DNA of 62,595 bases from a virus. Below, piece by piece: positions 278 through 60,778 of this stretch. The stretch covers positions 1 through 62,595 of the IMG/VR virus record IMGVR_UViG_3300027823_000007. The stretch is one strand, 5' to 3'. The translations under genes were made by a program, and so were the position numbers. Position 1 is the first letter of the stretch. Every line of letters begins with the position of its first letter. Below the pieces are notes generated by a model. The model worked only from the letters and a program-made list of their open reading frames with translations. It made no database searches and had not been told where the DNA came from.

Positions 278-3200
278 ATGGCAGACTTTCTAGAATATGT
301 CAAGCTAGGTGCGAGTCCAGGATTATTGAGACTGATTAAGGAAGATTTAGACGCAAGCGCGATCGACACTGAGACGCAAGCACTAAATTTTATGCCAATA
401 ACGGGCGTTGATGCTTTTGACTTTGTGTATGGCGATAAGGCCAAAAAATTACAAGGTGGATTCGGAGTTTCTGCACCGTGGATGAGAAGCCTATACAAGG
501 TGCAAGATTTTTGCGGCTGGATCTGCAATGGTAGAATTAGACACTTAGGCGGATCACCTTTTAGGGATAGTGACGGCAGTGCGCGGCGGTACATGGCATC
601 ATCGGACAAGAAAACACCGATAACCTTTATAGAACCTTCCCAAAGAGCGATCGAGCTAGCAGAGGCAAGATTTAATATTCCCAAGCCTATAGCATTATCT
701 TATTGGCAATGGATTAAAACATATTTTTTGCCTGTGGTGGTAACAGAAGGAGAAAAAAAAGCAGCCGCGTTAATTTGTGCCGGAATACCCGCTATAAGTT
801 TGCCTGGTATATTTACCGGGTTTAAGGCGATTAAAGATGACTGGGGAAAGACTATCGATCGGTTGATCCGGGAAGAGCTAAAAGAATTTGACCAACCCGG
901 TCGCACGGTTTATATAATGTTCGATCGTCGCCCTGATGAGGATTTTGAGGCAACAGTAGAATTCAAAGCAGCGGCGATACTTAGCCGACAATTCAAAAAA
1001 GCGACCGTCAAGGTTTGTAATTTACCGGGCCCGTATAAAGGTGTAGATGATTATCTTGCAGCGGGTAAGCTGGCGGACATAGAGACAGCTTTAATTCAGT
1101 CGCGATCGGCTCAAAGTATGGAGCAGACGCGGATGTGGCGCGAATACAGACGTTTTGATGCTCAAGGTAAAAAGACACGCGATCGCTTTTTTGCAGCCTC
1201 AGAACCGCAAGCAAACAGCATCACAATAGTTAAATCTAATCTCAACTCAGGTAAGTCTCAATGGTTTGGCGATGTTGTTAGTAAAGTTAAACCCGTCAAA
1301 ATTAACGGCAAACTTTCTAAAAAATCCGATGCGGACGGCGTTATGGTGTCAATAGGGCACAGAAATTCGCTACAGGAGCAATTATGCGAGAGATGGGATT
1401 TTGATCACCTTGACATACATAGTGCTTATGGGCGATTCAAGGATCCCAACCTGCGGGTAGCACTATGCTTTGATAGTTTATTGAAACTGCCGATCGAGAT
1501 ATTTGATGGCGCGACCGTGGTGATTGATGAGACAATGACGGCTATCAAACATTTATTAACTAGCTCTACACTCCGAGGCAAGCGACTCGATATTATAACT
1601 AGATTCGAGTATATTGTTAGGGTATGTGCCCGACTAATACTCATGGATGGTAATATGTCCGACTGGATGGTGGATTATATCACGGCGATAGATCCCGACA
1701 AAACTGTAGATTTATACGAAAATACCAGCGATCGGGAAACCCCGCCGATCTTTTTTGTAGATGACAATACTATTACAAAACGAAAGGCTGAAGAATGGCT
1801 AAACCTTCAGATTTTAGAAAGTTCTTTACCCGCGATCGTTGTTGATAGCATCATCAAAGCTGAAGCGATCGCAGAGCAACTAACAAAGCTAAAAGGTGAG
1901 GGCATACTTATAACCAGTAAAACCGTTACCGAAAAATGGGTTAGAGCTTTTTTAAGGGCACCTGATGAGTATATTGATGCTAACCCCGATCGCATTAACT
2001 GGATAGTCTGCACTCCTACTGTAGAAAGTGGTGTTTCTATCGAGAATGTTAGCAAGTTTGATACTCTTTTTTGCTGGTTTGTTGGTGTTGTGGGAATAAA
2101 TGAAGCAGTGCAGATGTCGCGACGGGTAAGAAATCCCGGTCGGATTATCGTATACGCTCCCAAAGTAGGGATCGACCATAAACGCAACGCCGGCGCGTTT
2201 GAGCAGGTACTAATGGAAGATTTAGCAGTGCGAATCACAGCAGAGGCTGGTTTGTTTCCGGAAAGTACGATCGGCGACAAAGTAATGGCGACTTTGCGCG
2301 CGCAACTTGATAGTCCGCACGTCCAAGCTTGGGCAAAAATGCAGGCTATCTCATACTTAGAGACTCGCAACTATCGAGAATTTTTATATATTGCTTTTGA
2401 GTCAATGGGCATGACTCCGCAACGTGTAGAGGCTTATGAGATAGACTCAGAAGCCTATCGCACTGCTAAGCTAGAAGTACAGATTGTAGAGTGCAATCAG
2501 ATTTTTAACGCGCCCGACCTTACCGATTCAGAGGCAGAAGCGATCGGTAAAAAAATTGACTCGACATGGGCTGAACGTTGTAGCGTACTGAAGTATAAAA
2601 TTCTCTACCGGTTTCCCGGTCTACAAGATTCTATTTTATGGACTGCCGACCTTATCCACCGTTTAAGGTATGCAGAACGCGATTTAACTAGCTCTCTTGA
2701 GATGTTCTGGCTCTTGACTCATCCAGAAGAGTCTAAGGCTCTACAGGCTCAAAAATGGGCGGGGAAAGAAGATATAGATTTTTTCGTACCTGACAGGATC
2801 GGCGATCGCTGGACAATTATAGAAACCCTAAACCGTTTGGGCTTCCCTAAGCTATTGGCTGATGGACATCGCTACTCGGATCAGTCTGAAGATGTCCTCA
2901 ACCTGATCGGCAAGATCCGATCGCATAAAACTGTTTCCAGAATCACCGGACACCCCGGCGATGCTACTAACCTGCATTTTATTAACCGCATATTAATGCC
3001 GATGTTTGGTATTAAACCCGTCCGCCGTCAAGTACGGTTACCCGTACATACTATTGGTGTAGAAGGGGCCCGGGTTAATTTTTACTACTACGATCGAGCA
3101 CAATCACACACCGATAATTTTGAAGAGTTGATCCAATATGTCGATCGCCGATTCCAACTAAAACTTGGTGCAGACCTCTCTGATTTACCCCCAATTCAGC

Positions 3201-3670
3201 GCTCGATCGCTCCAAACCCGGACAGCGTACAGGTTCCGATTGCTTCTGATGATGGTATATTACCTCAAACGGAAACAAAAGACTTTGAGCGTTATCAAGG
3301 GCTTCAAAGGCATACTATGGTAGGAGTCGAAGATCCTGCTATATATATACAAACAAAGGATAATAATCTGACAGATCCTGAAAATTACCCCACTTTTGGA
3401 CAAAACGGCGGGCGATCGGGTGAAACGGTTGCAGAGAGTGCGATCGGGGCGATCGAGTCACTAGGAGTCAATGGTGATGAGGACTCGCATAAATTGCAAT
3501 CTGAAGAGTTTTTAACTGTGTGGGTGCGAACAAATGCCATCGATCGCCCTAAAATAGAGACTGCAATACTACTAGATTGTGAAGGTGAAGGCTTCAGCGT
3601 GACGATCGAGGGCAACTTGTGGCTAATTGCTTGCGATGACTTATTCTGGCTGCCTCCTGAGCCTTCCTAG
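278..3670 (+). CDS. Plasmid replication protein, CyRepA1-like (Toprim/DUF3854 plus helicase)
   Basis: A large replication protein of 1130 residues, probably the initiator and primase-helicase of this replicon. The N-terminal third has the Toprim-like signature of DUF3854 proteins: TEGEKKAAAL near residue 156 and an acidic FDRRPDED segment near 215. A degenerate P-loop (NLNSGKS, near 321) follows, then a Walker-B-like VVIDET (near 414) and a helicase motif-VI-like segment, QMSRRVRNPGR, further on. This Toprim-then-SF2 order matches cyanobacterial plasmid Rep proteins of the CyRepA1 type. The start ATG lies about 30 bases after a GCGATCGC site and has no strong ribosome site. The C-terminal 200 residues look low in structure. 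The family call is from motifs and context; a phage primase-helicase is the alternative. No partition ATPase gene lies next to it. Confidence 0.75.
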   Translation: MADFLEYVKLGASPGLLRLIKEDLDASAIDTETQALNFMPITGVDAFDFVYGDKAKKLQGGFGVSAPWMRSLYKVQDFCGWICNGRIRHLGGSPFRDSDGSARRYMASSDKKTPITFIEPSQRAIELAEARFNIPKPIALSYWQWIKTYFLPVVVTEGEKKAAALICAGIPAISLPGIFTGFKAIKDDWGKTIDRLIREELKEFDQPGRTVYIMFDRRPDEDFEATVEFKAAAILSRQFKKATVKVCNLPGPYKGVDDYLAAGKLADIETALIQSRSAQSMEQTRMWREYRRFDAQGKKTRDRFFAASEPQANSITIVKSNLNSGKSQWFGDVVSKVKPVKINGKLSKKSDADGVMVSIGHRNSLQEQLCERWDFDHLDIHSAYGRFKDPNLRVALCFDSLLKLPIEIFDGATVVIDETMTAIKHLLTSSTLRGKRLDIITRFEYIVRVCARLILMDGNMSDWMVDYITAIDPDKTVDLYENTSDRETPPIFFVDDNTITKRKAEEWLNLQILESSLPAIVVDSIIKAEAIAEQLTKLKGEGILITSKTVTEKWVRAFLRAPDEYIDANPDRINWIVCTPTVESGVSIENVSKFDTLFCWFVGVVGINEAVQMSRRVRNPGRIIVYAPKVGIDHKRNAGAFEQVLMEDLAVRITAEAGLFPESTIGDKVMATLRAQLDSPHVQAWAKMQAISYLETRNYREFLYIAFESMGMTPQRVEAYEIDSEAYRTAKLEVQIVECNQIFNAPDLTDSEAEAIGKKIDSTWAERCSVLKYKILYRFPGLQDSILWTADLIHRLRYAERDLTSSLEMFWLLTHPEESKALQAQKWAGKEDIDFFVPDRIGDRWTIIETLNRLGFPKLLADGHRYSDQSEDVLNLIGKIRSHKTVSRITGHPGDATNLHFINRILMPMFGIKPVRRQVRLPVHTIGVEGARVNFYYYDRAQSHTDNFEELIQYVDRRFQLKLGADLSDLPPIQRSIAPNPDSVQVPIASDDGILPQTETKDFERYQGLQRHTMVGVEDPAIYIQTKDNNLTDPENYPTFGQNGGRSGETVAESAIGAIESLGVNGDEDSHKLQSEEFLTVWVRTNAIDRPKIETAILLDCEGEGFSVTIEGNLWLIACDDLFWLPPEPS

Positions 3671-27088: not shown

Positions 27089-27094
27089 TTGAAT

Positions 27095-27721
27095 ATGTCA
27101 CTAGCTAGCCTAAAACTCCCAAAGGGTGCATTAATTCTCAACTACAATAAACCGGGCCAACATTATTTTGATTACGAATTAGCGCCACGAGATGTATTGT
27201 CAAAACTTGCATTCTTAGGCGCTGTTTCAACTGTTGAAATAGACGGTAAGACCTTGCCCACAACGGCAGAAAATTTACAACGCGCGGGGATAGGCCGTAA
27301 ATCATTAGGTGACGGGGTAGAGATGACTGGGTTAATGGGATGTGTGCTACTCTGTGAGGGCGATCGGTTTAAAATACTAGACAACTCATTAGACGTTGTA
27401 AATTCTAGGCACTTCACTTTTGACAAAACAGAAATCACTTTTGACAACAGTGATAACGATATTTTTCAGAATACTTTATGGTCTAAGAACGTAGAAGAGT
27501 CCGGGCGCTTGTTGGCTCACGTCAAAGATATTACCAGTTATTGTAAGATTAACGGACAGCCTGTCTTAACCCAACATTTTGATCTACCAGTTACCGAGGG
27601 CGGGATAGGCTGGCTATTGGCTGCAATTTTGCTTAAGGTAAGCATTAACCAGGGAAAGTTCGAGTTATCGATCCCAGAACCGTTATCATCCTCTCAAAAT
27701 GGTGCGGATACGATTTCTTAG
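27095..27721 (+). CDS. Tail assembly chaperone (gpG-like), zero-frame product
   Basis: 208 residues from ATG 27095 (TTG 27089 is possible). It lies directly before the tape measure gene, as tail chaperones do. The in-frame heptamer G GGA AAG at 27652-27658 is the same slippery sequence as phage lambda G-T. The -1 frame is then open to 27825. The zero-frame product ends in a flexible tail (LSSSQNGADTIS). Chaperones of this type coat the tape measure before tube assembly. Confidence 0.75.
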   Translation: MSLASLKLPKGALILNYNKPGQHYFDYELAPRDVLSKLAFLGAVSTVEIDGKTLPTTAENLQRAGIGRKSLGDGVEMTGLMGCVLLCEGDRFKILDNSLDVVNSRHFTFDKTEITFDNSDNDIFQNTLWSKNVEESGRLLAHVKDITSYCKINGQPVLTQHFDLPVTEGGIGWLLAAILLKVSINQGKFELSIPEPLSSSQNGADTIS

Positions 27722-27825
27722 CGCAAATAGCACCGTTACCCCAAAAGGCTCAAGAGATATTTATACTTGAAGCGATCGCACTAATGGAAGAGGAAGCAAC
27801 CGAGATAAGACGACGGCAAAAATAA
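27652..27825 (+). CDS. Tail chaperone -1 frame extension (gpT-like)
   Basis: After slippage at GGGAAAG the -1 frame codes 55 residues ending ...LAQIAPLPQKAQEIF and EEEATEIRRRQK, then stops at 27823-27825, 22 bases before the tape measure start. The -1 frame has a stop just upstream of the slip site, at about 27645, so it is read only by frameshifting. The fusion would be about 243 residues. Without it, the bases between 27721 and 27848 would be unexplained. Confidence 0.7.
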   Translation, partial: GKVRVIDPRTVIILSKWCGYDFLAQIAPLPQKAQEIFILEAIALMEEEATEIRRRQK

Positions 27826-27847: not shown

Positions 27848-29455
27848 ATGGGCGTGATAAAGTTAGGAGTACAGGCGGATCTAACCGATAACGTAACACC
27901 CGGTTTACAGAAATTAGCAAGTTCTGGCGCTGATGAATTAAAGCGTATTAGCGATGCTCAAAGAGCGATGAATGAGGTCGTAGGAGGTGCACAGACCTAC
28001 ATTACAGCGCCGTTAGTCGCGCTTGGTGCTGTGGCGTTTGATGCCTCAACAAAATTCGAGACAAGCATCACAAGTATCAATAAAATTCTCGATTTGACCC
28101 CCGACAAACTGGCAGCAATGAAAGGGGAAATATTAGACTTATCTAATACTTTAAAAGTAGTTGATCCGAATAAAATCGCCGCGCTTGCTGCTGCTGCTGC
28201 ACAATACGGGATAGCGTCTGATGAGGTTATAAAGTTCACAGAAACAGTCGGAAAGATGGCGTTTGCTTTTGATTTGCCAGCCGATGAAGCTGGGGAAAGC
28301 GCCGCGAAAATTAGAAATATTTTCAAACTTTCGGTCGATGAAATGAACGATTTAGGAGGAACGATAAACGAACTTTCTAATAATATGGCAGCAAGCGCTA
28401 AAGAGATAACTAAAGTGTTACCGCGTGTTTCCGGTCTGGCAGCACAAGCGGGATTAACCTATAGAGAAACTGCGGCGCTTTCTGGTGCTATTTTGTCACT
28501 GGGAATTGTACCCGCTAAAGCAGGCACGGCGATTAATTTTCTAGTTGGATCAATGAGTGCTGCAACTGTTGGATCTGCTAGATTTAAACGCGGGATCGCA
28601 ATGGTCGGTTATTCTGCTAGAGAGATGGAGGAAGACGTGAGATCGCGCGGATCTGCGGCTATTACGGATTTTCTAACTAAGATTAACTCACTAGACGCTG
28701 CTAAGCGATCGCGCGCTATTGCCTTAATAGGTGGTCGGGAATACTCAGACGATTTAGGGATGATGTCTAGTAATGTTGAATTGCTACAACGCGCTTTAAA
28801 TCTTGCAAATAATGAACAGGCAACAGCTACATCATTGCAGCGTGAATTTGACATCCAAACAAATACAACAGCATCAGAAGTCGCGCGGATGGGCGTTAGT
28901 ATGAATAAGCTTGCGATCGTGGTTGGTGATGCCTTGCTGCCACCAATTAACGCTTTGTTAGACAAGATGATCCCGCTAATTCAAAAAACAGCGGATTGGG
29001 CTAAAGAAAACCCCAAAGTTGTTAAAAGTATTGTATACGTCGGAGCGGCGCTTGCTGCGATCGCCCCAACAGTCCTATTCTTTTCAGCTATAACTGGCAT
29101 TGTGACCGCTGCGGGCTTAGCTTTCTCTGTGTTTGGTGGCGGCGCTACAACAGCGCTTTTAGCCGTAGCTGCGGCGGGCGCGATCGCGGTGGCAACAATC
29201 CGACCTTTGAGAGAGGGCTTTATGAGTGCGATCGGCGTACTGCCATCTATGCCTACTGCTAAATCATCAACTTTATTCGGTTCCTCTGGCGGCGGCGGTA
29301 GCCAACAGCAAACCGTTACCTATTCCCCGACTGTGAATGTTAGCGGTACAGCATCCAAAGATGACATCATAGACACCCTCAGAGAGCGTCAGCGCGACTT
29401 TGAAGTGTTTATTAAGGAAACACTAAGCAAGTACGGTCGCACGTCCTATGGTTGA
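27848..29455 (+). CDS. Tail tape measure protein
   Basis: 535 residues. It sets tail length and is injected with the DNA. It has a TP901/PhageMin-tail-like domain (FETSITSINKILDL, LNAGLTYRETAALSGAIL-like LAAQAGLTYRETAALSGAILSLG) and two hydrophobic helices in the C-terminal third (SIVYVGAALAAIAPTVLFFSAITGIV and ALLAVAAAGAIAVATI). A Gly/Ser linker (SSGGGGS) precedes a short C-terminal domain. It is short for the family, implying a short tail. The GGGA arm of the palindrome (27836) is the only ribosome-site-like sequence. Confidence 0.85.
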   Translation: MGVIKLGVQADLTDNVTPGLQKLASSGADELKRISDAQRAMNEVVGGAQTYITAPLVALGAVAFDASTKFETSITSINKILDLTPDKLAAMKGEILDLSNTLKVVDPNKIAALAAAAAQYGIASDEVIKFTETVGKMAFAFDLPADEAGESAAKIRNIFKLSVDEMNDLGGTINELSNNMAASAKEITKVLPRVSGLAAQAGLTYRETAALSGAILSLGIVPAKAGTAINFLVGSMSAATVGSARFKRGIAMVGYSAREMEEDVRSRGSAAITDFLTKINSLDAAKRSRAIALIGGREYSDDLGMMSSNVELLQRALNLANNEQATATSLQREFDIQTNTTASEVARMGVSMNKLAIVVGDALLPPINALLDKMIPLIQKTADWAKENPKVVKSIVYVGAALAAIAPTVLFFSAITGIVTAAGLAFSVFGGGATTALLAVAAAGAIAVATIRPLREGFMSAIGVLPSMPTAKSSTLFGSSGGGGSQQQTVTYSPTVNVSGTASKDDIIDTLRERQRDFEVFIKETLSKYGRTSYG

Positions 29456-56036: not shown

Positions 56037-57869
56037 TTAATTAAGCAAATCAAACTTAGTTATTAACTCATTGTCGCCGGATTCAAGTATGAACCTGACA
56101 ATAATAGGCTTAGCTATTTTGTAGCGATCGCCACTGGTAATTTTTAAGTCGCGTTTGATGAAATTAGACATCAAGCTTTGAGTTATTTTGGCAAGTCTTA
56201 AGACTAATTTCCGATCGGGAATCCAGTCTGGTAACAAGGTATCATCCGGCGTATCATCCGGCGTATCAGACGGCGTATCAGACGGATCCACGCCATCCCA
56301 GCCATCGGATGCGGGTTTGTCTGAAGGTATAATACCATGTAGATCCACGCCACGGCGCGCTATCTCTTGGTTGAATTCTGCCATATAGTCATCTTCATTG
56401 TTTGGCTGGTTCCTATCAATAACTGCGACATTTGTAGGCTTCTGATAGTAGGGAGCGAGTGCTAATACAGGCTTACCAACAGCAGAGAATATAGCAGGCA
56501 ATTGATGGAGTCTTGAGAGTTTGACCAATTCCTCAAGTTCAGTATTCAGCCGATCGCGATCTAACTTCGATGCCACTATATAACTATTGTTAATCAGTAG
56601 CTGCAAGCTCTCATAATTACCTTGCTCAACTAGATCGCCGTTTACGTCTATTTTCTCGGTTACTAAGCCTTGGCAGCTTATGGCTAAGTTGCCTCGAATA
56701 TTGCTATCTTGAATGCCCAAAGCGTCTAAATTAAAGCTCTGTGTCGCTATGTAGATACAAACGTTAGCCTCGCGTCCTTTAGTGATAATCGCTGCGATTT
56801 TTGTCTTGACGATATTCCATAACGCCGGATATAATCTTAGGACTCCAAAACTTGCAAACCAGTCATCAAGAATTAATCGAATAGGCAATTTTTCAAACTT
56901 TGTACGATCGCTCTCTGGGGTATTTAGTCTCCGCTTCATCTCAGAATAAACTTTATCCAGATAGGCCATTGATGGTTCTGGATTGAGATCGTCAAAAATC
57001 GTGACTCTACCTTGCTCTAGTAAACCCAAAAAAGAATCTCTTTTGTGGGCAATAACATAGACTTCAGCCTGCGGATACAGTGTCTGTAAGTCGCCTAACC
57101 AGCGGTACAGGGTGTGGGTTTTGCCGCCACCTGTAGGTGCTGCCGACAGAATAGACATCCGTAGCGCTGCGAGCGATCGCATAATTTTGTCGCCGTTATC
57201 TTGATAGAATTTTTTGCGATCGTCGGGAACTTCACCCCCAGTTATTCCGTCTTCTTTTAGTCGAGCCTTAGCACCCGCGGCAGCCGAGTCTATCTCCGCT
57301 TGATATTGTTCCGGTGTCTTCATGCCTGCAAAGGCAGTATTTTGCAGTATAGGTGCTGTTGGAGCGATCGCTGGTTTGGGTTCCGGTTCTGGCGCAAACC
57401 AGCCGTTAGCCGCGCGGATATCGTCTACCTCTTCTACTAAGCTATCCTCAAATAGAGCCATCTGAGCCTCACCTCGCTTTTGCAGTTTCGCCCGCTGCAA
57501 ACTCAAGTTATAGCTGGCTTGAATGTCTGCTTGGGCATCAACCTCGCGGCAGTTTCGTTCATATTCGATCCTTTCTCTTTCTAGTTCCGATCGCCGCTCT
57601 GCTGATAATGTGACCCCCGTTACACCCGCGGCCGCACCTATGGCCCAAACTAATAACCGTAAACCGCCCCAACCCTGACTCACTTTAGCGTCTTTGATTT
57701 TTTGATATTTTGGATCTTTCTGTTGCCAGACCGGGATATCTATCGGCCTGTTTTCGATCGTACCCGTGATCCGAGTCTCAGGCTGAATCATAGCACCCCA
57801 TAAACCGAGTACCAATGCTAATCCATAAAATCCGCTTGTCATTAATGTTGCTTTTTGATTCCGGCTCAT
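56037..57869 (-). CDS. Membrane-anchored FtsK/HerA/TraG-like ATPase
   Basis: 610 residues. Two N-terminal transmembrane helices (about 8-27 and 68-90). A coiled-coil segment (ERRSELERERIEYERNCREV) links to the ATPase: Walker A SAAPTGGGKTHTLYR (near 242-256), Walker B IRLILDDWFASFG (near 330-342) and a later IYIATQSFNLDALG sensor. The C-terminal quarter is polar, with a DTPSDTPDDTPDDT repeat and a helical end. The form is that of DNA-pumping ATPases, such as FtsK or conjugation coupling proteins. On a plasmid this suggests DNA transfer or segregation. No relaxase is seen in the window. Confidence 0.7.
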   Translation of the reverse strand: MSRNQKATLMTSGFYGLALVLGLWGAMIQPETRITGTIENRPIDIPVWQQKDPKYQKIKDAKVSQGWGGLRLLVWAIGAAAGVTGVTLSAERRSELERERIEYERNCREVDAQADIQASYNLSLQRAKLQKRGEAQMALFEDSLVEEVDDIRAANGWFAPEPEPKPAIAPTAPILQNTAFAGMKTPEQYQAEIDSAAAGAKARLKEDGITGGEVPDDRKKFYQDNGDKIMRSLAALRMSILSAAPTGGGKTHTLYRWLGDLQTLYPQAEVYVIAHKRDSFLGLLEQGRVTIFDDLNPEPSMAYLDKVYSEMKRRLNTPESDRTKFEKLPIRLILDDWFASFGVLRLYPALWNIVKTKIAAIITKGREANVCIYIATQSFNLDALGIQDSNIRGNLAISCQGLVTEKIDVNGDLVEQGNYESLQLLINNSYIVASKLDRDRLNTELEELVKLSRLHQLPAIFSAVGKPVLALAPYYQKPTNVAVIDRNQPNNEDDYMAEFNQEIARRGVDLHGIIPSDKPASDGWDGVDPSDTPSDTPDDTPDDTLLPDWIPDRKLVLRLAKITQSLMSNFIKRDLKITSGDRYKIAKPIIVRFILESGDNELITKFDLLN

Positions 57870-58446: not shown

Positions 58447-58995
58447 TTATTCTCCTTTAATTCCTTTTGATGCAATTATCAAACCCAAAACACTCACGAC
58501 CGAGGTTGTGAAAACTATCGAAGTAGTAGATAATACCCGCCAGTTATCCCGTGCCCAATCAAGCCCCGCGTCAGACATTGAAACAGTTAAACCCGCGGCT
58601 ATTGCTATCAGCATCACAAACACTCTTAATTTGTATTCCGATCTGTTTAGCTCACGCCAGCAACACACCATAAGTATTAAAGCACTTGCTACCACGCTTA
58701 ACGCAACACCCGTAGCTAACAAGCCTGCACCAAACACCCTTATTAAGCAAATAGCCGTCCCCGTCCCTAACAGTGTTGAAATAGTAAACCCTATTTCAAC
58801 AAATACGATCCATTGTGAGTCCATGCGATCGTACAAACTTAGCTTTCTTTTCCTTACAGTTTCCTCCGATTTCTTGCGATTATTGGAGTAAGTAAACTCA
58901 CGCTGTAACTGTTCGTAATCTTCTATTGCTTGCACTTCGATCGGATCGTCTACCTCTGCATTGCCTTGATATTGATATTGATCTACTTCAAACAT
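58447..58995 (-). CDS. Membrane protein with four helices
   Basis: 182 residues. The N-terminal 60 residues are cytoplasmic, acidic and helical. Four hydrophobic segments follow: WIVFVEIGFTISTLLGTGTA, VFGAGLLATGVALSVVASALILMV, VFVMLIAIAAGLTVSM and LSTTSIVFTTSVVSVLGLII. No family is recognised. It is coded between the coiled-coil and HAD genes, so a membrane complex with the ATPase is possible. Confidence 0.6.
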   Translation of the reverse strand: MFEVDQYQYQGNAEVDDPIEVQAIEDYEQLQREFTYSNNRKKSEETVRKRKLSLYDRMDSQWIVFVEIGFTISTLLGTGTAICLIRVFGAGLLATGVALSVVASALILMVCCWRELNRSEYKLRVFVMLIAIAAGLTVSMSDAGLDWARDNWRVLSTTSIVFTTSVVSVLGLIIASKGIKGE

Positions 58996-59005
58996 TAGTT
59001 AACTC

Positions 59006-59713
59006 CTATTTCCCAAAACTAAATAGCTTGTCAAGTAGTGCTACCTGAGTAGTGCCTACGTAAGCACTACCAGAACTCGATCCAATTGCGTTAACTTGAT
59101 CCATCGGTTTGCCACTTGTAAAAGCTTTCAAACGCGCTCTAGCCTCCGCATCCCGTTGCGCTTGACCATTATCTTTCTTTCTCCCGAATTGCGCGATCGA
59201 AGCCTCAGCTTTTTCGTGACTATCTGAAATCCGTTGATCGGTCTTGGCTTTCCACACCCGCACTCTGTCTGCAAATTCCACGCTAACAGCGCGAATTTCT
59301 TCATCAGTGACTTTTGTCAAAAAGCCCAATTCTTGAGCTTTCCGCGCTGTCCATTCTCTGAAGTGTTCTTCATAGGCTGCCTTAGCTAATAGCGAGGCCA
59401 ACACATACTCATCGATCTCTTTCTCGGTCTTGAAATGCAATTTTTCGATATTGGATCGAATTTCTTCTATTTCCTTGCGGGCACTCTCTAACTCCTTAAC
59501 AGCCTCAAACCATTCGTTCGCCCATTCTACCTGTAGTTTTGCGTTGTCTTTCTTAATGTTTAAAGCTCGCACCTTAGCGGGTGTCAGATTGCCTACGTCA
59601 GCATATTGGCTATTGGTGACAGGTACTTTAAAAGCTAACCCGGTCGCATAACTATCCTCACCATCTAAACCCGCTATCTTTGAGCTTTTGCCTGTCGATT
59701 TTGACTTAGCCAT
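59006..59713 (-). CDS. Coiled-coil protein
   Basis: 235 residues. A long coiled coil spans roughly residues 60-115 (LESARKEIEEIRSNIEKLHFKTEKEIDEYV). The N-terminus is basic and Ser-rich, the C-terminus Gly/Ser with a hydrophobic end (VALLDKLFSFG). It starts 1 base after the stop of the -1 frame extension of the previous gene (59715). No family is recognised. It belongs to the ATPase operon. Confidence 0.6.
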   Translation of the reverse strand: MAKSKSTGKSSKIAGLDGEDSYATGLAFKVPVTNSQYADVGNLTPAKVRALNIKKDNAKLQVEWANEWFEAVKELESARKEIEEIRSNIEKLHFKTEKEIDEYVLASLLAKAAYEEHFREWTARKAQELGFLTKVTDEEIRAVSVEFADRVRVWKAKTDQRISDSHEKAEASIAQFGRKKDNGQAQRDAEARARLKAFTSGKPMDQVNAIGSSSGSAYVGTTQVALLDKLFSFGK

Positions 59714-59714
59714 C

Positions 59715-59939
59715 TTACAAATAACCCATTACTTCAAAAAAACTAAAACTGTTTGGTGATGCTATATTGCTTAGATTGTCGGGCGGTAGATGCTTTAAAA
59801 ACCCGTTAATTGTGCGCTTGAGCCATTGCATAGTCGATCGCTCCCTATCTGTTGTTAGTTGGTTTTCTAGTGCTCTTATGCGAGCACTAAGTCTCTCTAG
59901 TTGCTCCCGATCGCGGCTGCTTAGTGTCTTGACAAAAAA
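59715..59939 (-). CDS. Possible -1 frameshift extension (coiled coil)
   Basis: On the minus strand T TTT TTG (59939-59933) lies in frame five codons before the stop of the gene 59921-60391. From it the -1 frame is open for 72 codons: it begins VKTLSSRDREQLERLSARIR, has leucine heptads, and ends FFEVMGYL just before the next gene. It has no ATG, GTG or TTG start before its codon 35, so frameshifting is the simplest route to translation. Confidence 0.5.
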   Translation of the reverse strand, partial: FFVKTLSSRDREQLERLSARIRALENQLTTDRERSTMQWLKRTINGFLKHLPPDNLSNIASPNSFSFFEVMGYL

Positions 59940-60391
59940 TCGGCTGCACTCATTCCCGTATATTGACTGCCAGGTAAAACGTCAACAATAAACTCGGTCA
60001 ACTTAGCATCAAAAGCATTACTGTAGGCGGTCGCGGCGACATCGGCTGCTAAATTACCAAGCAGATCCCATTGTTGTGCTGTCTGAGTTAGAACCCGATT
60101 GATGTCCGCGTCACGGCTGGCAGTGCTAGCAGCGCCTCTTCTGCTTTTTTTTGCCGTAGCCGATTTGACTCCCTCATTTACACTGACTTCGATATTCCCA
60201 ACACTGGGATTAACCTCACTACCTGAGAGTGCTTTGATGTCTTGTCGCAATATACCCGCGGCTGCCATCGACTCGACTAACTGGTGTTCCTCATCTACTG
60301 TTAGGTTGTTGATATCAAATCCTAACTTTTGAGCGTGCCCCGCTCTCAGTATGTTGTATTGTTGTGCAGATAGTGACTGGTTCTTAGACAT
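59921..60391 (-). CDS. Unknown protein with probable frameshift end
   Basis: 156 residues. N-terminal helices (QYNILRAGHAQKLGFDINNLTVDEEHQLVESM), a basic linker (KSATAKKSRRGAAST), and a C-terminal part with TAQQWDLLGNLAADVAATAYSNAF. A palindrome copy (60197) is read in frame as NPSVGN. The last codons contain the heptamer T TTT TTG. It lies at the start of the ATPase operon. No family is recognised. Confidence 0.6.
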   Translation of the reverse strand: MSKNQSLSAQQYNILRAGHAQKLGFDINNLTVDEEHQLVESMAAAGILRQDIKALSGSEVNPSVGNIEVSVNEGVKSATAKKSRRGAASTASRDADINRVLTQTAQQWDLLGNLAADVAATAYSNAFDAKLTEFIVDVLPGSQYTGMSAADFLSRH

Positions 60392-60403: not shown

Positions 60404-60778
60404 TTAGTGTGTGTGTGCTGTGCTGTATTTCTTGTGTAGCTTGTAAAATGCAAGCTCATTAGCCTGTATTGTTTGGGCGATCGTGTCGTTTGGATGCGCT
60501 TGCTTTCTGAGTTCTGAAACTAGGAACAAACATTGCACCTGATAATCGTCTAGCGGTGGATGTTTCTTTCTTTTGTCCTCTGATTGCATTACTAGAAACT
60601 GCCAGATATTGAAACTATGGGGAAGAGTTAACAAATTTGAATGAACCTCAAACTCCCATTTGTAGATAGTCTCGATCGATACTCTGAGATGTCTTTGGAG
60701 CGATCGGCGCGTCCAATTTTGCGGTTTTGTGTTTCTCTGGGGGATCACGTCCCCCGTCTCCATAAGAACTAACCTCAT
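60404..60778 (-). CDS. Small HTH protein, first gene of the ATPase operon
   Basis: 124 residues. TRRSLQRHLRVSIETIYKWEFEVH reads as a helix-turn-helix. The middle has PLDDYQVQCLFLVSELRKQAHPND, helical. It is upstream of the ATPase operon with a possible TTGACA box (minus strand, 60899-60894) about 120 bases before it. It may be the operon's regulator. Confidence 0.6.
   Translation of the reverse strand: MRLVLMETGDVIPQRNTKPQNWTRRSLQRHLRVSIETIYKWEFEVHSNLLTLPHSFNIWQFLVMQSEDKRKKHPPLDDYQVQCLFLVSELRKQAHPNDTIAQTIQANELAFYKLHKKYSTAHTH

Follow-up and report, generated by a model that had tools for sequence, protein, structure and literature searches.

A conserved candidate -1 frameshift gene in the ATPase operon of a putative cyanobacterial phage-plasmid

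In lambda-like phages, the gpG/gpGT pair arises from a small gene in which a -1 slip close to the 3' end yields a minor form, extended at its C-terminus by a segment that spans the gap to the following gene. The dnaX gene of Escherichia coli likewise gives a short and a long subunit form by slippage, similar to what we propose here for a different gene. To our knowledge, few conserved candidate -1 frameshift genes are found in phages beyond the tail chaperone. Outside phages, the transposase genes of IS1 and IS3 use A_AAA_AAG and other heptamers of the type X_XXZ_ZZN, located in the overlap of two frames of a mobile element, to make a limited amount of fusion protein (PMC4066793). These transposase genes, together with many candidate chromosomal gene families (PMC4066793, PMC3711429), make the statement in a preliminary description of the present locus, that reports of frameshifting outside replicase and tail genes are rare, too strong for bacteria. 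In E. coli most X_XXZ_ZZN heptamers frameshift above background, and many motifs do so without a stimulator (PMC4066793).

We analyzed a stretch of 62,595 bases, hereafter called the window, which is the whole of the IMG/VR virus record IMGVR_UViG_3300027823_000007. The plus strand carries terminase, portal, major head protein and tape measure genes, and a gene at 278-3670 encodes a 1130-aa replication protein with a CyRepA1 plasmid replication domain, which scores well above the cut-off. The joint presence of these phage genes and the CyRepA1 domain suggests that the element is a tailed phage with plasmid-type replication, and phage-plasmids are already known from other environments (PMC4490671). 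The host group, to judge from the relatives of the element, is the cyanobacteria. On the minus strand lies an operon that comprises, in this order, a 124-aa gene, the 156-aa slip-site gene, genes for proteins of 235 and 182 aa, a HAD/PNK3P phosphatase-like gene and the gene for a 610-aa P-loop ATPase (Table 1). A short palindrome, TTCCCAnnnnTGGGA, often inside ATTAATCCCAGTGTTGGGAAT, occurs at about 33 places in the window, mostly in intergenic positions (for example 3837, 13793, 36605, 57902, 60195 and 61396). The copy at 60195 is located within the coding sequence of the slip-site gene, and variants of it are found in frame in the relatives too.

Table 1. Features of the minus-strand locus around the candidate slip site, in window coordinates.
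Feature	Position	Strand	Evidence and remarks
124-aa gene, directly upstream in the operon	60404..60778	-	Weak sub-threshold HTH match; no Shine-Dalgarno found before the ATG
0-frame gene, 156 aa if not frameshifted	59921..60391	-	ORF; conserved in L002, L003 and L015
Slippery heptamer T_TTT_TTG	59933..59939	-	Sole heptamer in the frame overlap in all lineages
-1 frame extension, 72 codons + stop (VKTLSSRDREQLERLSARIRALENQLTTDRERSTMQWLKRTINGFLKHLPPDNLSNIASPNSFSFFEVMGYL)	59715..59933	-	Leucine/isoleucine 3-4 heptad pattern; dN/dS 0.17-0.29
7-bp hairpin AGTGCTC-GCATAA-GAGCACT	59869..59888	-	Starts 44 nt after the heptamer
Internal ATG (extension codon 35), possible 38-aa product	59715..59831	-	AGGGAG 9 nt upstream, block invariant in four sequences
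Next gene, 235 aa, predicted largely helical	59006..59713	-	Very-low-confidence model; without Shine-Dalgarno
182-aa protein, hydrophobic membrane-spanning-like segments	58447..58995	-	ORF
610-aa P-loop ATPase	56037..57869	-	Homologous to cyanobacterial plasmid proteins

The slip-site gene contains the heptamer T_TTT_TTG in frame near its stop (codons GAT TTT TTG), as the preliminary description had it, coordinates included, and the TAA stop of the 0-frame comes three codons past the heptamer. The -1 frame stays open through 72 codons (59933..59718, with a TAA stop at 59717..59715) and fills the gap to the next gene, the ATG of which, at 59713, follows one base on. No normal start precedes codon 35 of this frame, the earliest ATG, GTG or TTG being the ATG at 59831. 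In-frame heptamers of the form XXXYYYZ are common, since the 15,555 codons of this genome contain 111, of which six are TTTTTTG, and the heptamer alone is therefore weak evidence. Of the 54 genes scanned, just two combine a heptamer in a frame overlap with a -1 extension that is 25 codons or longer, the slip-site gene and a tail-assembly-chaperone-like gene (27089-27721). Upon mononucleotide shuffling, the 72 codons stay open in 0.9% of trials. The chaperone-like gene, which serves as an internal positive control for the scan, has the G_GGA_AAG heptamer of lambda at 27652-27658 and a 55-codon -1 extension that ends just before the tape measure gene (27089-27825 in all).

Four members of the gene family are known, which are few and fairly close: the window and three other assemblies, representing three lineages in all. 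L002 is a viral contig that is 98-100% identical in the two proteins compared, L003 is a viral contig with 86% identity in the 0-frame protein, and L015 is a contig from a bin of an uncultured cyanobacterium, with 78% identity. Scans of viral contigs, genome contigs and about 450 cyanobacterial genomes, and tblastn of the 0-frame protein against phages and plasmids, retrieved no further relatives. Two weak genome matches look like chance; one, in G186 (L035), is unrelated upon inspection, and the other, in G059, sits in a 2326-aa open frame.

All four assemblies have the six Ts in phase and an open -1 frame of 70 or 72 codons. In the relatives the frames are unfused and codon 35 is not preceded by any start codon; upstream of the heptamer, the overlap is devoid of ATG, GTG and TTG in all three lineages. 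The frames overlap by 43-61 nt, with the shortest overlap, of 43 nt, in L015, where the 0-frame tail reads STL rather than SRH, and T_TTT_TTG is the sole slippery heptamer within the overlap in each of the three lineages. The single indel in the extension measures 6 nt and is in frame. The keeping of TTT TTG is by itself weak evidence, because such codons are often kept at conserved residues in the operon (16 of 22 for TTT and 7 of 18 for TTG). The decisive evidence for the observation is the conservation of the extension across lineages.

The extension also bears the marks of selection. Its dN/dS ratio (Nei-Gojobori) is 0.17-0.29, compared with 0.12-0.18 in the 0-frame part. In codons 1-34 of the extension, dN is 0.06-0.17 versus a dS of 0.20-0.62, and neutral simulation of these codons produced as few or fewer replacements without a stop with P=0.03, 0.0035 and 0.003 in three pairs that are not independent of each other. 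The other two frames of the extension region hold many stops. The substitution pattern indicates that the extension is evolving as protein, including the 34 codons ahead of the first ATG. Judged by the reading frames, codons 1-34 are reachable by a change of frame only, with no other ordinary entry.

The arrangement of the frames, their conservation and the selection on the extension support the probable -1 frameshift of the preliminary description, for which the gene is a candidate. We consider it likely that -1 ribosomal frameshifting at T_TTT_TTG gives rise to a 153+72-aa coiled-coil variant of the protein, with tandem slippage as the simplest account. Ribosomes on the 156-aa gene would slip back by one base in tandem at the heptamer, at a minor rate. 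Those that do not slip would end three codons later and produce the short form, and those that slip would add 72 codons, producing a 225-aa long form in which the last helix runs on into the coiled coil. The AlphaFold2 model of the 0-frame protein, which is of low confidence (mean pLDDT 62), predicts two paired helices at the N-terminus, then a disordered linker, a long helix, and last a short helix whose end coincides with the slip site. Ribosomes leaving the extension, and any that initiate at codon 35, would probably feed the next gene, and the ratio of short to long form would matter for a complex that includes the helical, membrane and ATPase proteins encoded downstream. We infer the slippage itself, its ribosomal nature and its rate, as well as the coupling and the role of the ratio between the two forms.

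The -1 frame might instead be made solely as an independent 38-aa protein that starts at the ATG of codon 35 via the AGGGAG, in which case the heptamer would be coincidental. The AGGGAG lies 9 nt upstream of this ATG, a block of about 30 nt at this site is identical in the four sequences, with synonymous change suppressed, and such a start would be enough to couple the next gene. We nevertheless regard this explanation as unlikely, since codons 1-34 are open in all lineages and constrained at the protein level, in a region where the other two frames are full of stops. A 38-aa product may be made from the same ATG in addition to the long form. It is also quite improbable that RNA polymerase, rather than the ribosome, slips on the six Ts, so that some transcripts lose or gain bases. 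The homopolymer run is there and is conserved, some bacterial genes exploit polymerase slippage on T runs, and in certain species a shorter run may be enough (PMC1088944). However, a run of six is short: many genomes show selection against slippage once runs of A or T reach about nine (PMC1088944). All four sequences moreover keep seven consecutive Ts close to the end of the extension (AGTTTTTTTGAAG, window 59736-59742), a feature that would carry a cost if short runs were prone to slippage here; a slip there would lead to a stop at once or within two codons.

That the extension directly continues the 0-frame protein would also be expected if an ancestral frameshift mutation had been fixed and the extension were the decaying remnant of a once longer gene. 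The low dN/dS, the lack of stops and the in-frame indel, in every lineage, are at odds with decay, and make this explanation very improbable. Some sequencing methods are prone to single-base errors in T runs, but the chance that the frames were separated by a sequencing or assembly error in the homopolymer is negligible, because the three other assemblies, two of them just 78-86% identical in protein, have the same six Ts and frames. A homopolymer error, which the preliminary description had named as the concern to be dealt with before any other, or a recent slip is thus excluded by relatives that are unfused, lack an earlier start and keep the six Ts. Ribosomal slippage at T_TTT_TTG is the explanation that we prefer.

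The RNA around the heptamer offers no conserved stimulator of such ribosomal slippage among the three lineages, at the usual spacing for a structure of about 5-9 nt downstream. Hairpins near the heptamer vary by lineage, with one about 12 nt downstream in the window and L003, and a different one 6 nt downstream in L015. No strong Shine-Dalgarno-like element, for which the usual place would be about 10-14 nt upstream, was found ahead of the heptamer, and Rfam gave sub-threshold matches only, all of them outside the frameshift site. The hairpin that starts 44 nt past the heptamer reads AGGGCGC-GCATAA-GCGCCCT in L003 and L015, with two compensated pairs relative to the window. We did not adopt it as a frameshift stimulator because it lies at an unusual distance, too far downstream for a standard one, and because of its chance background: hairpins of 7 bp have a density of 1.4 per kb here, and in 13% of cases four substitutions like those observed would spare all pairs by chance. 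T_TTT_TTG ends in the heterogeneous UUG codon, and is expected to be weaker in E. coli than heptamers with UUY or AAR (PMC4066793).

The next gene is probably coupled translationally to the extension, because its ATG comes one base past the extension stop and because it has no Shine-Dalgarno; the 0-frame, membrane-protein, phosphatase and ATPase genes of the operon have one. The AlphaFold2 model of the 235-aa product is of very low confidence (pLDDT 49).

Proteins homologous to the ATPase are encoded on 28 cyanobacterial plasmids, and some of these proteins are annotated as members of a type IV secretory system (T4SS) conjugative DNA transfer family. Identity to the plasmid homologues is 26-30% over the whole alignment and about 42% over the ATPase core in the best matches; searches for the ATPase in PDB and NCBIfam found nothing. 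Like the phage, most of the plasmid operons compared (pOSC7112.01, pOSC7112.03, Nostoc, Aulosira, Leptolyngbya) have a helical gene of about 240 aa and a membrane-like gene of about 180 aa before the ATPase, although the similarity of the helical and membrane proteins between phage and plasmids is weak and was shown against Tychonema L016 only. In contrast to the phage, the plasmids have no counterpart of the frameshift gene or its extension that is detectable by HMM and profile comparison. The ATPase operon is common to the phage family and cyanobacterial plasmids (L010-L029), and in Nostoc sp. UHCC 0302 it adjoins ParM/StbA and ParG genes.

The designation of the slip-site gene as non-structural is putative; the position of the gene and the plasmid-type ATPase that lies downstream in its operon support it. 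From position and coiled-coil content alone, the frameshift protein could be an adaptor in a membrane complex. We tentatively suggest, as a possibility that we hold to be less likely than not, that in this plasmid-type membrane ATPase module of a cyanobacterial phage-plasmid, -1 frameshifting sets the ratio of short to coiled-coil adaptor in a manner analogous to gpG/gpGT, and that the ribosomes that slip also determine, through coupling, how strongly the next subunit is translated. If this is true, one slip site would govern both the composition and the stoichiometry of a DNA-transfer or partition complex. The locus in any case points to an uncharacterised ATPase module that is common to cyanobacterial plasmids and a phage with plasmid-type replication.

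The slip-site gene was considered as a tail assembly chaperone and rejected, since it is not located upstream of the tape measure gene (27848-29455, plus strand), where a separate chaperone-like frameshift gene is found. A comparison with chaperone families gave no PHROG at E<=0.01 and no Pfam match above cut-off. The resemblance to gpG/gpGT concerns the layout of the two frames; the slip-site gene differs in having another heptamer, in sharing its minus-strand operon with an ATPase of plasmid type, and in lying some 30 kb away from the tape measure gene. Compared with the IS1 and IS3 transposase genes, it is without a transposase domain, its extension is a short coiled coil, and it has no conserved stimulatory structure at the usual spacing. 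In dnaX, by contrast, frameshifting produces the shorter of the two forms, and the site has strong stimulators. The present candidate is supported by selection on its trans-frame protein across three lineages. As its genome also has the lambda-like tail frameshift, both sites can be assayed side by side. On sequence grounds, the slip-site gene is a real conserved candidate for -1 frameshifting, in which the gene family is new and the mechanism would be of a known kind.
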